Source of the DNA: a virus
Direction: 5' to 3' (one strand)
DNA length: 20,066 bases
Virus record (IMG/VR): IMGVR_UViG_3300048686_000223
Span: 1-20,066 of that record
Shown here: positions 2,989 through 8,844 of the stretch, piece by piece
How the letters are laid out: each line of letters begins with the position of its first letter
Numbering within the stretch: position 1 is the stretch's first letter
Position numbers and translations under genes: made by a program
The notes under the pieces: generated by a model
Told to the model about the DNA's origin: nothing
The model's database searches: none
What the model saw: the letters and a program-made list of their open reading frames with translations, nothing else

Positions 2989-3501
2989 ATGGCACTTAAT
3001 GGAAGTAATTTAACGGCATTAAGTAAATTACTGTCGTTACCTTCACCTCAGCTAGACTTTAAATGGGTGTGTTTGTACCTTCCATTCAACCATCCCCTAC
3101 ACTATGTTGAGTCAATTGATGTACCTTGGTTAAACATAAGTGTAGGGGATAAAACTCATGCTGGTAGCACCTATGAATATTATCCAGGCACTCATGATAT
3201 TCAACCTGTATCTATTACCTTCTATGAGGATGAACGTGCCACCTCTTTGAAGTACGTTACTAACTGGAAATCAAAGGTTAAATCACTAGAAACTGGGTTC
3301 TATAACTTACCTACAGTGTATAAACAGGAAGTACGGGCACAATTGCTAGATACAAGCAATAATCCTGTTGTGTCAATAACCCTGACAGGAGTGTGGCCGT
3401 CAGAGACCCAGTCGTACTCTCTTAAGTACACAGATGCTGGTAGGCTTGTAGTAACACAGTCGTTTTCAGTAGATAACCAAAGGTTGCAGTTCCATAAGTA
3501 A
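2989..3501 (+). CDS. Second tail-tube-fold protein (tube paralogue or initiator)
   Basis: This 170-residue protein has the pattern of gp19-family tube proteins: 'SITFYEDERATSLKYVTNWKSKV', then 'YNLPTVYKQEVRAQLLDTSN', a 'GVWPSETQSYSLKYTDAGRL' turn-strand and a closing 'VVTQSFSVDN' strand. It differs clearly in sequence from the neighbour at 2438, so this is an old paralogue and not a recent duplication. It starts 6 bases after the previous stop with no recognisable Shine-Dalgarno sequence, which implies translational coupling and perhaps lower or proportional expression. T4 uses tube-fold paralogues (gp54, gp48) at the baseplate end, and Afp-type particles have a separate tube-start subunit. 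A similar initiator or terminal-ring role is possible here but inferred. Confidence 0.75.
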   Translation: MALNGSNLTALSKLLSLPSPQLDFKWVCLYLPFNHPLHYVESIDVPWLNISVGDKTHAGSTYEYYPGTHDIQPVSITFYEDERATSLKYVTNWKSKVKSLETGFYNLPTVYKQEVRAQLLDTSNNPVVSITLTGVWPSETQSYSLKYTDAGRLVVTQSFSVDNQRLQFHK

Positions 3502-3568: not shown

Positions 3569-3629
3569 ACCTTGTGGGCTACAGAGAACTGTAAATCTTA
3601 ATAAGAACAACAACTACTTAGGAGCAACT

Positions 3630-4406
3630 ATGAACCCATCTTTACCGAAAGACTCTAATTGGTCGGATATAGGTAACCTACCGTCAAACTTCTACCCATA
3701 TACTTACAGCAGCCTGGACATACAACCGCTGACGTTAAAACAGTTAAAACTGTTGTCAAAGACTACGCTAACTGGTGACTTAAACTACCAGTTTGAAGCA
3801 GTAGCTAGTTGCATATCAACTGACGTGCTAAGTCTCTCTATAGGAGACTACTACTACATACTAGAATGGCTAAAATACCATTCAATGCCTAAAACACCGC
3901 TTACGGTAGAATGGACATGTCCTCATAAAATACTCCAGCATAAAGAGACTGGTGACATGTTGTCGAATCACCCTGAGTCACTTAGACAGTCTGCTGCTAC
4001 GATTAACCCAGCTGACTACGATTTAGTAGACTGCAACACGCTTAACACTGAAATAGTGCATTTTTCTAGCCTTGAGGTATTCCAGTTACCTGAAGAAAAC
4101 TGGACAGGGTTACCTGATGGGTTTGACTTTCCAAGGGTATCACACCTAATTGACTTAAAAGAGGCTCTAAAAGACCCTGAGTTAAACATGATTATACCAG
4201 CGGCTCAATGGGTAAAAGCTGCAACCGTAGCAGAAAAACTCGCAATACTAGAAGCACAGCCTAACCTATCTATGTTTCACATGGGGTTGTCGTTAAACCG
4301 TAACATCAAGCATGGTATTGCCACCAATACTACACTTCACTGCAGGGCATGTTCAGCGGAATATAAGTACACTATTCAAGTAGAGGCCGCAAGTTTTTTC
4401 CAATAA
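3630..4406 (+). CDS. Tail/baseplate assembly chaperone, zero-frame product (gp26/gpG-like)
   Basis: This 258-residue protein lies between the tube genes and the tape-measure gene, where tail assembly chaperones are encoded. It has split zinc-ribbon-like features: 'WTCPHKILQH' around residues 95-104, a 'VDCNTL' strand near 133, and 'LHCRACSAEYKY' with C238 and C241 near the end. The C-terminal 'VEAASFF' resembles the ending of T4 gp26-type baseplate hub assembly proteins, in which a CxxC segment is followed by strands and a terminal FF; I rely on memory of that family. AGGAG stands before the ATG. The last codons form the slippery heptamer T TTT TTC (4394-4400), only one sense codon (CAA) before the TAA at 4404-4406, so this is the short product of a frameshifting gene. 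Calling it a chaperone rests on position plus the frameshift arrangement. Confidence 0.8.
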   Translation: MNPSLPKDSNWSDIGNLPSNFYPYTYSSLDIQPLTLKQLKLLSKTTLTGDLNYQFEAVASCISTDVLSLSIGDYYYILEWLKYHSMPKTPLTVEWTCPHKILQHKETGDMLSNHPESLRQSAATINPADYDLVDCNTLNTEIVHFSSLEVFQLPEENWTGLPDGFDFPRVSHLIDLKEALKDPELNMIIPAAQWVKAATVAEKLAILEAQPNLSMFHMGLSLNRNIKHGIATNTTLHCRACSAEYKYTIQVEAASFFQ

Positions 4407-4579
4407 GTTCAGAGCAGGTTATCCTTGATTTAGAGTATGACCTGCTAAAACATCTTAACCTGCAGCCGCGTGATGACATTCCATCTATGAAGTTCTTGTA
4501 CTTTCACTCCAAACTTAAGAAAGACCTTGAGCAACAAGCACAAGCTAGAGCAGCCGCTGCTGCGAAGAAAAAACGCTAG
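3630..4579 (+). CDS. Tail assembly chaperone, -1 frameshift fusion product
   Basis: If ribosomes slip back one base on T TTT TTC (4394-4400), reading continues with CCA at 4400-4402 and stays open to TAG at 4577-4579. The fusion protein would have 257 + 59 = 316 residues. The added part is helical and charged: it contains 'SSEQVILDLEYDLL', then 'DIPSMKFLYFHSKLKKDL', and ends in a Glu/Gln/Ala/Lys-rich tail with 'AAAAAKKKR'. The only in-frame Met in this stretch lacks a ribosome site, so separate translation is unlikely. This is the arrangement of lambda G/GT, P2 E/E' and similar chaperone pairs, directly before the tape-measure gene. The fusion probably binds the tape-measure protein during tube assembly, by analogy. 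The slip efficiency is unknown. Confidence 0.8.
4394..4446 (+). promoter_or_regulatory. Programmed -1 ribosomal frameshift signal: slippery heptamer plus stem-loop
   Basis: The heptamer T TTT TTC (4394-4400) is in the correct phase (X XXY YYZ) for simultaneous slippage in the zero frame of the chaperone gene. Twelve bases downstream, AGCAGGTTA (4413-4421) pairs with TGACCTGCT (4438-4446). This gives nine pairs including one G-U, around a 16-base loop. The zero-frame stop lies between heptamer and stem. The spacer is somewhat longer than the usual 5-9 bases. A competing perfect 8-bp pairing of GCAGGTTA (4414-4421) with TAACCTGC (4456-4463) is also possible. Confidence 0.75.
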
Positions 4580-4626: not shown

Positions 4627-7600
4627 ATGACTCTACAAGAAATTTTAGAATACCGTAAGGCCTATCTGCAAGATTTGCAAGAGAAAGACGACCGCGCGTA
4701 CATGATAGTTCTGTTAGAAGAACTTAACCGTACATTAGAGAGTTTGCGCGAGCCTTTAGTTAATGTACCAGCATTTAAAGATGACGATGCAGATGAACCT
4801 GAGCGGTCTAACCCTGTTGAGCACCTATTACAGAATAGTATTGCACCTACAGATGTAAAACCTGTTGTAGACGGTCTGAATAAGGTTAATGACGCTATTA
4901 CTGATGTAGATAGCCAGTTAACCCTATCTAACGAAGAAGTAAACCGTAACTTAAGAGCAATGCTGTACCAGTTAAAAGAGGTGCGCAAGGCTATTAAAGA
5001 AATAGAGGTTCAACCTACGGTTATTCAGGAAGAGTTGCAAAGTGCGGGTGGTTCAACTCGGCGTCGTAGTAGACGCCGTAGGCCATCAGTAACACCTAGG
5101 GAAACGCGACGCTCTACTAGACGTAGCTCAACAGGTGCAGGAAGTTCAAACCTACAAGGTTCTAGCTCTAACTCACAACAGTTAAACACTAACCTCCGTT
5201 CAGACTCAAGAACTACTAACAACTCAGCATCGTCGTCCTTATCATCACGGGTGTCTAACCTAGTACCACGTGGTATACCTCCTGTATTACAGCAGGGGCT
5301 TTCTTCTCTTACACCAACTCGGGCTACAGGTGTACTAGCAGCACTTACAGGAGTTCTAGGTATTGCCGATGCGGTAGCCAGTTCAGACAGTGCCCCACAA
5401 GCAGTAGGGCAAATAGCATCTACTGCTGTTAACACCGCTGGTGGTATTGCGGGTTCTGCTGCAGGTGCGGAAATTGGAGGTATTATTGGCGCATTTGGTG
5501 GGCCTGCTGCCCCAATAACTGTGCCTGCAGGTGCACTTTTAGGGTCAATGGTTGGAGGTTACTTAGGTTCTACGTTTACTACTGACTTAGCGACTAGTAT
5601 TGGTGACACAGTTACCGGTGCATTGTCTGGAGAGTACGGACCAGCAGAAATAATGGGTGCTATTGCACAAACTGTAGCACCGTTAAACCCTATGATGGCC
5701 TTAACACAAGTAATACCAGAATTAGCACAACTTACAGCGTCTTCTATTGTGGGTTCATCTGATGCTCCTGATTCAATACCGTTAGAGCTACCACCTGTAC
5801 TTACTGCCATCTTTACAACCCTGGGTTTCAATATTCGTTCATTAATGGGAAGTAATACAACTTTATCGGACTCTATTGAGACCTACGGTAATTCTCTAGT
5901 AGAAGGAGGTCAAGAAATGTTTGACCTTATAAAGTCTACTGGTCTAATACTTTTCAATGAAATGATGGACGGTTTGTCAGATATTGGCGATTCCGCAGTA
6001 GGTGGTGTGTCACAAGCATGGGAATCGACTAAACGTGGAGTAGGTGACGCCATAGGTGGTGTGGTTGGAGGTATTAGTTCAGCAGGTGGACAAGCATGGA
6101 AGTCTATAGAGTCTACTTTAAAAGGTGACGTAGGAAGTCCCCAGTTAGCAATGAAAGTTCTCATGGATAGAGGATACTCTAAGGATGATGCTGCTGCTAT
6201 AGCCGCCCAATACTCCGCAGAAAGCGGATTCAATACCAAAGCAGTAGGTGATAGTGGTAAAGCACGGGGTATCGGACAGTGGCACCCTGACCGTGTTGCT
6301 AAGATGGAAAAGTTGTACAACAAAAAGTTTGACCAGATTACCTTTGAAGAACAAGTCGGGTTCACAGACTGGGAACTTAAGAATACTCACGGCAAAGCCT
6401 TGCGAGCTATGCAGTCCGCAACAACTCCGGCTGAAAAGGCTAAGGCACTAGAGCGGTATTACGAAATAGATGCTTTATCTCTTAAAGGTGGTTTTCAACA
6501 AAAACGTGTTGATGACGCTGAAAAGTATGCAAGAATAGATGATAAAGTTATTTCTAGTTCTCAAGGTTTACCACAACGTGTATCTGAACATGCTGCACAA
6601 TTATCAGGTGTTGCAGACTATTCTGAAACCCCACCAGGTGAGCTTAAAGGTGGGTATCAAATAGTACCACCAGAGCAATTAAAGATTAAAAGTAAGGAGT
6701 CTACTGCAGGTGGAACCGCACAAAAAGGAACTATGGATTTAGCAGGACTTATGCAATCCAGGTATGGAGACTCTATTAAGTATTTTTCTGCATTTAATGA
6801 CCAGTACCATGCAGACCATAGCCCTACATCTGGACATACCAAGGGGTTAAAGTTTGATATGGTACTGAACGATGCTTCTCAAGCAGAAGTAATGTCTAAT
6901 AACATAAAAGCCATATCACAGGAGTTAGGTGTACCCGTAAATGTATTAAATGAGTATGCAGACCCTTCGGCAAAGGCAACTGGCGGTCACTTAGATGTAG
7001 GTTTTAAATCTCAAGAACATGCACAAGCCTTTGCACAGGCATTGGCAAAGAAACAAGAAGAAGCATCTAAGGCTCAACCTACTGTCCTGGCTAAAGGTCC
7101 TAGAGTTACACCAGATGCTAATCAACAACCTTTGGGGGCAATTACAGGAGAATTACCAACGTTACCATCAGGTGCTGAGAATTACTGGACTATTAATCCA
7201 GAAACAGTTACGTCGGTTTCCAATACTACCGCACCGCAATTGGAGGTAACACCTCAAGCTGCTACTGCTCAGGTGCAACCGCAGACCCCAGTTGTAACCG
7301 TAGATTCTTCTCCGATAACAGCGCAGTTACCTAGTACACCTACAGTTTCTTCTGCACCACCTATTATCCCAGTTGGTACCTCACAACAAGGTAATAGTTA
7401 TTACTCTGCTAGTTCTGCTGTATACGAAGAGAATACGTCGAAGTACCAAACACCTCAATACCCTGTTGGTACTGTAACTCCAGGGACTCCTAACTGGAAC
7501 GGTAGTCCTCAAGAGTTTGAGGCTATGAAAAGAGCAGCCTGGGGAGAGTCTACACCAGTACCTCAAGGTACACCATACAGTACACCTCAATACCCTGTTG

Positions 7601-8844
7601 GTACTGTAACTCCAGGGACTCCTAACTGGAACGGTAGTCCTCAAGAGTTTGAGGCTATGCAAAGAGCAGCCTGGGGAGAGCCTACACCAGTACCTCAAGG
7701 TACACCATACAGTACACCTCAATACCCTGTATATCCAGAGCCAGTACAAGGAGTGTCACCAGTACAAAGGTTGTTAGGCGCTACTAGCAGCTTGATTAGT
7801 CAGTTTGTACCAGGAGCTAGCAAAGTAACAGGAGTCTACAATGCAGTGTCACCTCTTCTAGGGTTACCTCAGGTTCCAACTGACGGGCCTTATGGTTCTG
7901 TAGGGTATAACGGGTATCCTAGCGTTACTCCAAACTATTACGGTTACGGTGGCAATCAATACGGATATTCACCTAGCAGTGTGCAAAGTGTAACAACGCA
8001 GTATGGTGGTAATCAATACGGTTATGGACGCCAGCCAGCAACCTCTAACCTATCGAACTACTTAACAACCGATGAATACCGAACTAGCAACGTAACATCT
8101 GCTAATGCGACGTTGAGTTCACCTGTTGGATACATAACCAATCAAAGTATGTATCAACAACCTGCAACACCTGCTCCAACTAGTTATACAGTTCCAACCC
8201 CAGGAACTCCTAACTGGAACGGTAGTCCTCAAGAGTTTGAGGCTATGCAAAGAGCAGCCTGGGGAGAGTCTACACCAGTACCTCAAGGTACACCTCAATA
8301 TGCACCAGGTGCCTCTTTAATAGAGACAGTTGACCCAACTACTGGTATTTCAACTATTAGTGTACCACAACCCTATGGTACTACTCAATCTTCGCAAGGT
8401 AGCCAACCACAATTACCCGACGTAACTAGTAGTGTGGGAGGGTATCAAGCAGCGGCACAATACTTAGGTTCTGTTACTACTAACCAACAATCTGATTATT
8501 CAGACATTCATAACCAAGTTCTTAATTCATCATTAGTATCTGGTGTGGGTTTATTGGATAGTGTAACTCCATCTGTACCATCACCATTGAATCCTAACAT
8601 TGGTAATGCTTTTGAGCCAGTGAGTCTAGGGTTATCTAACATAGGTGAACCAGTCGCAACCCCAATGCCAGTACCGTCATTACCTCCTATGTACGATGGT
8701 TCAATGGAACAACAAGGTGAACCATCTGTAGTTATGGGAAGTCAACCTTCACAAAGTCAAGGAGGTAGCAATGTTACTATGGATGAAATACCGGTACGTA
8801 TCGACGACTTTGGTATTGTACTTATGCAGATAATGAACATCTAG
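4627..8844 (+). CDS. Tape-measure-position protein with internal lysozyme and M15-like peptidase domains
   Basis: This 1405-residue protein is the largest in the window and directly follows the frameshifting chaperone, the normal tape-measure position. Regions in order: charged helical N-terminus (1-130); Arg/Ser-rich patch (141-170, with 'RRRSRRRRPS') and Ser/Asn-rich linker; Gly/Ala-rich hydrophobic stretch (about 232-318), possibly membrane-active; mixed helical region; phage-tail-lysozyme-like domain (about 503-612), with 'AAQYSAESGF' (candidate catalytic E532) and 'ARGIGQWHPDR'; and an M15-like peptidase domain (about 703-812), with SxHxxGxxxD (H737, D744) and 'GGHLDVGF' (H788) as likely zinc ligands. 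From about 820 to the end it is rich in Pro, Gln, Thr, Ser and Tyr, holding an almost identical 44-residue tandem repeat and a third copy. The enzymes would open peptidoglycan during DNA entry. The C-terminal half looks disordered and is unlike a classical helical ruler, so a dual tape-measure/hub-lysin role is inferred. An AAAGG-type site precedes the ATG. Confidence 0.85.
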   Translation: MTLQEILEYRKAYLQDLQEKDDRAYMIVLLEELNRTLESLREPLVNVPAFKDDDADEPERSNPVEHLLQNSIAPTDVKPVVDGLNKVNDAITDVDSQLTLSNEEVNRNLRAMLYQLKEVRKAIKEIEVQPTVIQEELQSAGGSTRRRSRRRRPSVTPRETRRSTRRSSTGAGSSNLQGSSSNSQQLNTNLRSDSRTTNNSASSSLSSRVSNLVPRGIPPVLQQGLSSLTPTRATGVLAALTGVLGIADAVASSDSAPQAVGQIASTAVNTAGGIAGSAAGAEIGGIIGAFGGPAAPITVPAGALLGSMVGGYLGSTFTTDLATSIGDTVTGALSGEYGPAEIMGAIAQTVAPLNPMMALTQVIPELAQLTASSIVGSSDAPDSIPLELPPVLTAIFTTLGFNIRSLMGSNTTLSDSIETYGNSLVEGGQEMFDLIKSTGLILFNEMMDGLSDIGDSAVGGVSQAWESTKRGVGDAIGGVVGGISSAGGQAWKSIESTLKGDVGSPQLAMKVLMDRGYSKDDAAAIAAQYSAESGFNTKAVGDSGKARGIGQWHPDRVAKMEKLYNKKFDQITFEEQVGFTDWELKNTHGKALRAMQSATTPAEKAKALERYYEIDALSLKGGFQQKRVDDAEKYARIDDKVISSSQGLPQRVSEHAAQLSGVADYSETPPGELKGGYQIVPPEQLKIKSKESTAGGTAQKGTMDLAGLMQSRYGDSIKYFSAFNDQYHADHSPTSGHTKGLKFDMVLNDASQAEVMSNNIKAISQELGVPVNVLNEYADPSAKATGGHLDVGFKSQEHAQAFAQALAKKQEEASKAQPTVLAKGPRVTPDANQQPLGAITGELPTLPSGAENYWTINPETVTSVSNTTAPQLEVTPQAATAQVQPQTPVVTVDSSPITAQLPSTPTVSSAPPIIPVGTSQQGNSYYSASSAVYEENTSKYQTPQYPVGTVTPGTPNWNGSPQEFEAMKRAAWGESTPVPQGTPYSTPQYPVGTVTPGTPNWNGSPQEFEAMQRAAWGEPTPVPQGTPYSTPQYPVYPEPVQGVSPVQRLLGATSSLISQFVPGASKVTGVYNAVSPLLGLPQVPTDGPYGSVGYNGYPSVTPNYYGYGGNQYGYSPSSVQSVTTQYGGNQYGYGRQPATSNLSNYLTTDEYRTSNVTSANATLSSPVGYITNQSMYQQPATPAPTSYTVPTPGTPNWNGSPQEFEAMQRAAWGESTPVPQGTPQYAPGASLIETVDPTTGISTISVPQPYGTTQSSQGSQPQLPDVTSSVGGYQAAAQYLGSVTTNQQSDYSDIHNQVLNSSLVSGVGLLDSVTPSVPSPLNPNIGNAFEPVSLGLSNIGEPVATPMPVPSLPPMYDGSMEQQGEPSVVMGSQPSQSQGGSNVTMDEIPVRIDDFGIVLMQIMNI
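7451..7730 (+). repeat. 132-base tandem repeat inside the tape-measure gene
   Basis: Two head-to-tail units (7451-7582 and 7583-7714) differ at only two bases, giving K/Q and S/P changes. They are followed by 16 bases of a third unit (7715-7730). The period is 44 codons, so the frame is kept. Each unit encodes 'PGTPNWNGSPQEFEAM', then 'RAAWGE' and a Pro/Thr/Gln-rich linker. The near identity at synonymous positions indicates recent duplication or ongoing homogenisation. Confidence 0.95.
8200..8294 (+). repeat. Dispersed third copy of the tape-measure repeat core
   Basis: These 95 bases match 7480-7574 (offset exactly 720 bases) with about two differences, and match 7612-7706 about equally well. 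The copy shares CAA (Gln) with the second tandem unit but TCT (Ser) with the first, so it is a mosaic of the two. It is in the same reading frame and encodes the same NWNGSPQEFEAM core. Confidence 0.9.

Follow-up and report, generated by a model that had tools for sequence, protein, structure and literature searches.

Does the gene that lies between the tail tube genes and the putative tape-measure gene of this viral contig encode one protein or two, and to which known tail proteins are its products related? The window, which is the whole 20,066-base stretch of DNA that was analysed, is a viral contig with a contractile-tail module. Its gene order is sheath, two gp19-like tubes, putative chaperone gene, tape-measure-like gene, then gp53-, gp5-, gp25- and baseplate-J-like genes. 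The chaperone gene thus sits between the tail tube and the putative tape measure, whose role is assigned in part from its position. The relevant features are the following:

703-2424, + strand, tail sheath, gp18-like (profile matches)
2438-2983, + strand, tail tube, gp19-like (profile matches)
2989-3501, + strand, second tail-tube paralogue (phrog_45, E=1.7e-17)
3620-3624, + strand, AGGAG Shine-Dalgarno of the chaperone gene (sequence)
3630-4406, + strand, short form (TAC-N-like), 258 aa, from ATG 3630 to TAA 4404-4406, ending ..ASFFQ* (phrog_13792, AlphaFold2, BFVD)
4367-4579, + strand, -1-frame ORF, open from 4367 to 4576, TAG at 4577-4579
4394-4400, + strand, slippery heptamer T TTT TTC, in phase, one sense codon 5' of the stop (sequence)
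4400-4576, + strand, post-slip extension, 59 aa, helical and charged, PISSEQ..KKKR (homology)
4413-4446, + strand, candidate stimulatory hairpin, 12 nt 3' of the heptamer (RNA folding)
4627-8844, + strand, putative tape-measure protein, 1405 aa, with a phage tail lysozyme domain (PF18013)

Three observations concern the neighbouring genes. The second tube-like gene adjoins the main tube gene, as it does in Lu11, PaBG and HRDY3. The tape-measure-like gene contains direct repeats (TPQYPVGTVTPGTPNWNGSPQEFEAMxRAAWGE, window 7380-7760). The segment 8888-9634 matches phrog_1114, "PmgG-like head morphogenesis", yet it is placed in the baseplate region; this name is probably misleading, since PmgG is related to T4 gp48 (PMC9024508).

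Predicted slip site and -1 reading frame

The chaperone gene ends with the codons AGT TTT TTC CAA TAA, in which T (4394), TTT (4395-4397) and TTC (4398-4400) form a zero-frame X XXY YYZ heptamer. It is the sole in-phase TTTTTTY among the 6178 codons of the window, three codons from a stop. A first-pass annotation of this DNA had placed the heptamer there, and its coordinates are all right. It had also described the -1 frame as open for 59 codons, to 4579, with no ribosome site of its own, which is the case: the first start codon in this frame, ATG 4487, lies within the conserved part and is preceded by no Shine-Dalgarno.

According to the proposed mechanism, most ribosomes would terminate at 4404-4406, which yields the 258-aa short form, whose predicted C-terminal peptide is YTIQVEAASFFQ. 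At T TTT TTC, both tRNA-Phe would re-pair one base back on UUU UUU, and a minority of ribosomes would slip by -1, pass the stop and add 59 aa, possibly helped by the downstream hairpin. The predicted long form (TAC-NC-like) has 316 aa and 35.8 kDa, and its junction peptide should be YTIQVEAASFFPISSEQVILDLEYDLLK. As predicted from the frames, the short and long forms share the N-terminal body, and the paralogue pairs found in relatives show the same relation.

The two readings overlap by only 13 codons, so that the slip site itself carries little statistical signal in one sequence. The evidence that the -1 ORF is coding comes from homology. In PHROG 34149, whose members are single in-frame proteins, the body aligns to profile positions 53-218 and the -1 ORF to positions 217-277 (E=8.8e-5); these positions are adjacent, and the two frames therefore join where the profile is continuous. 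Similarly, an HMM of the extension, built from in-frame long paralogues alone and including no frameshifted sequence (leave-one-out), finds the -1 ORF of the window among 502 ORFs with E=4.5e-15, the next best having E=2. Comparison with relatives and with these in-frame long proteins makes it very likely that a programmed -1 frameshift at 4394-4400 yields a short and a long chaperone.

ORFs of this kind are annotated separately in the records of Xhv, RHEph12, XacN1 and GAP32, and the -1 ORF could likewise be a small gene of its own, translated from the internal ATG 4487 or by reinitiation. This is very improbable, however: not only does ATG 4487 lack a Shine-Dalgarno, but the conserved FFPIxxEQxxLDM precedes any start codon and is translatable by frameshift only.

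The hairpin at 4413-4446 has a centroid energy of -17.7 kcal/mol, with a z-score of -2.9 for 4401-4470. Strong hairpins lie 3' of the site in PA5oct and Atu_ph07 as well, but RNA folding of the sites of the five nearest relatives gave none. The hairpin may help the slip in the window; it is not a family-wide feature.

Relatives with predicted -1 and +1 slips

A scan based on an alignment of the tube gave 63 loci, among them the nearest relatives; a sheath alignment was also usable, while a long-form alignment was too divergent for scanning. When the window's own protein or sheath served as the query, the scans gave nothing useful; the single match (L011) was a chance match to a different gene. 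Six loci are cut by contig ends (L042, L124, L128, L137, L153, L161). In L021, no chaperone-type gene adjoins the sheath and the ORFs there are uninformative.

The relatives that are nearest by tube identity and have a complete gene (L113, L114, L115/L116 and the L118-L123 group), plus L175, have a single gene followed by a -1 extension. Aligning the relatives had been suggested as a check of the first reading, and the outcome bears it out: the nearest ones keep the heptamer and the -1 extension, and the more distant ones have a predicted +1 slip or two paralogues in its place. The five distinct nearest metagenome loci all end in xxT TTT TTY xxx stop (AGT TTT TTC CGA TAA; GAT TTT TTT CGG TAG; ACT TTT TTC CCC TGA; AAT TTT TTC CGA TAA; TCT TTT TTC CGG TAA). 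Their extensions (L113, L114, L115, L118, L175) are 37-49% identical to that of the window, with which they align as FFPIxxEQxxLDMQYEL.... As in the window, their chaperone gene lies between the tube and a long tape-measure-like ORF, which is directly 3'.

Between the window and these relatives, the -1 extension has a dN of 0.22-0.56 and a dS of 1.5-2.7 or saturated, and differences counted by -1-frame codon position are most numerous at the third (394, versus 252 and 230 at the others). Judged from these substitutions, the extension evolves as coding sequence under purifying selection.

Six jumbo-phage isolates, whose gp26-like gene is more distant, also have an in-phase T TTT TTY and a -1 ORF, which extends 63-73 codons beyond the stop: Stenotrophomonas RAS14/CM1, Xanthomonas XacN1, Pseudomonas PA5oct, Cronobacter GAP32, Klebsiella RaK2 and Agrobacterium Atu_ph07. 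The fusion is unannotated in the isolate records that were examined, including those of RaK2, GAP32, PA5oct and XacN1. In loci of the RaK2/GAP32/PA5oct type (L107-L111), no long tape-measure-like ORF follows the frameshifted gp26-like gene, and a large structural gene lies upstream on the opposite strand.

These loci bear on the possibility that the real gene encodes one in-frame long protein, broken here by an indel error or a private mutation in the T-run. The window is a single metagenome contig, and a 6-T homopolymer is a usual place for errors. However, six isolates and another five distinct metagenome loci show an identical phase and also have the extension out of frame, and among the classified complete loci no relative has an in-frame long gene alone. 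An artefact or a private mutation is thus hardly credible.

In about 50 further loci, a homologous extension lies in the +1 (or -2) frame, two shifts which sequence alone does not separate; several of these contigs are near-identical, so that this number counts loci and not independent events. The gene ends in TTT TTT T(GG/AC/AT) CCT, TTT TTT C or TTT_C. The group includes IMG/VR contigs, Flavobacterium immuto, Microcystis Mel-JY01, L159, L165, Motura and Xanthomonas PhiXhv/Erwinia Ep032. One T4-like set of environmental and isolate loci (L024, L026-L028, L034-L100; e.g., L079:7551-8550) conserves TTT TTT T(GG/AC) CCT, and its +1 (or -2) extension ORFs, of 59-91 codons past the stop, are unannotated in the records examined. 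In PhiXhv-16/Ep032 and Motura (L006:2779-4006, L010, L112:15134-16625), the +1 slip apparently occurs at TTT_C, and the products FFPIYSEQ and FFPVNTFEA resemble the FFPISSEQ of the window. In Rhizobium RHEph12, I42 and N46 (L013-L015, around 3500), the +1 site is CCC_TAA; the body of these proteins has lost the cysteines and gained a helical insert.

In each of the 12 distinct -1 loci (7 + 5, in two comparisons), the U-run starts one base ahead of the codon; in the approximately 50 +1 loci that have a U-run site, it starts on the codon. The phase of the U-run therefore tracks the direction of the extension, as re-pairing of tRNA-Phe predicts. Transcriptional slippage on the T-run would instead produce mixed mRNAs, and it does not require such a strict link between phase and direction. 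The site is indeed a T-run, and some +1 relatives have runs of 7-9 T. But a run of six T is short for slippage of a bacterial polymerase, and several relatives have sites that are not runs, such as TTT_C and CCC_TAA. Slippage of the polymerase is therefore improbable, and slippage of the ribosome is the reading kept below.

The -1 products of the window type and of the RaK2 type (the latter in L102, L107-L111) have bodies that are alike by profile comparison, but extensions that are not directly alike. When profiles were compared directly, the window-type extension gave no significant match to either the RaK2-type extension (0.3%) or the gp51 tail (4%). A chain of comparisons links them, from window-type to +1-type (77%), from +1-type to RaK2-type (94%) and from RaK2-type to the gp51 tail (72%), which suggests that the extension types may be remotely related. 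The window-type and RaK2-type extensions may have diverged beyond detection, or one may have been replaced.

Fold and identity of the short form

The HMM of phrog_13792 covers residues 15-258 of the short form (E=3.3e-48). The Pfam family PF12322 (T4_baseplate, gp26/gp51) scores 15.3 bits (E=0.017), under its gathering cut-off of 24.5; the short form is therefore regarded as a remote relative of gp26/gp51 and not as a member of PF12322. PHROG 150 (baseplate hub) also matches weakly (E=7.6e-4).

An AlphaFold2 model of the short form, built on 36 aligned sequences, is confident (pLDDT 93.1). A BFVD search with this model gave 42 matches at E <= 0.001, including proteins of PaBG and Motura, a baseplate hub assembly chaperone of Acidovorax ACP17 (1.9e-8) and hub subunits (1e-6 to 4e-10); gp26 of Aeromonas 25 matches at 3.2e-3. 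The gp26-like identity claimed in the first-pass annotation is thus upheld at the level of the predicted fold, by which the window protein is a remote relative of T4 gp26/gp51, the match by sequence being weak. The zinc ribbon claimed along with it needs correcting: the four nearly invariant cysteines (C97, C135, C238 and C241) are split and do not make one simple ribbon. Among solved structures, none matches the window protein by sequence or by fold. The fold of a long paralogue weakly matched B. subtilis YqbN (3klu, Z 4.4); this match was dropped, as a much better model of the window protein gave no chain with Z >= 2.

From its family and position, the window protein likely fills the TAC-N/TAC-NC (lambda G/GT) chaperone role. 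The short form would coat the tape measure and the extension would bring in tube subunits, by analogy with lambda G/GT. The slip could also be real and its products structural parts of the hub: for a long time, T4 gp26 was counted among the hub components (PMC3004832). Yet a table in the same paper gives gp26 and gp51 as hub assembly chaperones, with gp51 required but absent from the particle, and a short and a long product encoded before the tape measure conform to the TAC pattern. A structural role is thus rather unlikely, and the chaperone role is preferred.

Paired genes, T4 and other known systems

Adjacent short and long paralogues are found in Lu11, PaBG, HRDY3, NCTB, Alexandra, Yoloswag, Y3, Sen-NF and some 35 IMG/VR loci. 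At the 25 distinct ends of short paralogues, an in-phase T TTT TTY or TTT_Y is never seen; the Phe pair there is TTC TTC or TTC TTT. The extension of a long paralogue is modelled as two helices, with lower confidence. T4 gp26 and gp51 are members of a single family (PF12322, E=8.8e-64 and 3.9e-52; hhalign 99%). They match phrog_150 up to positions 235 and 280, respectively, gp51 being the long member, and the T4 gp26 gene ends in TTC TTT.

In a tree of the body domain (243 columns, LG+G4, midpoint root), the -1 clade that contains the window has as its sister the +1 clade of L159/L165 (support 93). It lies between the A and B paralogue clades (supports 69-80), which mirror each other's order. 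This topology agrees with an ancient, single duplication of one gene that frameshifted; the deep supports are modest and the root is placed at the midpoint. The change of direction goes with a U-run shifted by one base relative to the frame. Taken together, the loci probably represent one homologous chaperone family, in which a short/long pair would be obtained at the same protein position by three interchangeable routes: a -1 slip, a slip by +1 (or -2), or a duplication in which the slippery codons are lost (TTT TTY to TTC TTY), T4 gp26/gp51 being one outcome.

Frameshifting in lambda G/GT is a classic case. The first-pass annotation had linked T4-type hub-assembly proteins with the G/GT pair; the G/GT role stands as likely, but such a link is not new. 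Vladimirov et al. 2022 is cited in the PRFect paper (PMC10885494) and in the Adele paper (PMC12846349) for TAC genes of T4-like phages, for a form with two genes, and for -1 signals of the poly-T type in the TAC-N genes of these phages; as these papers report it, the two-gene form is already published. In the literature, with Vladimirov et al. 2022 known via its citing papers, no description was found of -1, +1 and duplicated forms in one homologous family, and a family that switches between them may be new. Relatives of the T4 hub chaperones are predicted to frameshift in both directions, although T4 was for long the stated exception ("except T4") to conserved tail-chaperone frameshifting (PMC5009743). 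The loci also provide natural controls for how the phase of the U-run sets the direction of the slip, and for the circumstances in which a phage replaces a frameshift by a second gene.

Compared with T4 gp26/gp51, the window protein has the same fold family (BFVD) and short and long members, but T4 uses two genes where the window has one gene and a predicted -1 frameshift. With lambda G/GT it has in common a short and a (predicted) frameshifted long product, a gene between tube and tape measure, and a slip just before the stop. It differs in its heptamer (TTTTTTC, versus G GGA AAG in lambda) and in its Cys-containing body of 258 aa, and the likeness seen is one of arrangement. The TAC of Pakpunavirus/Vandenendeviridae (GTTTTT, -1 frameshift; PMC12846349) is similar in mechanism, in another phage family. 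Listeria phage PSA (PMC5009743) has a +1 frameshift on a proline codon, CCC before the stop, like the RHEph12 relatives, but in capsid and major tail genes and not in a chaperone. The two-gene chaperonin gp143/gp144 of 0305phi8-36 (PMC2147016) is an earlier precedent for paralogues replacing a frameshift; it belongs to another lineage, whereas the homologous family of the window also has single-gene forms with a predicted frameshift.
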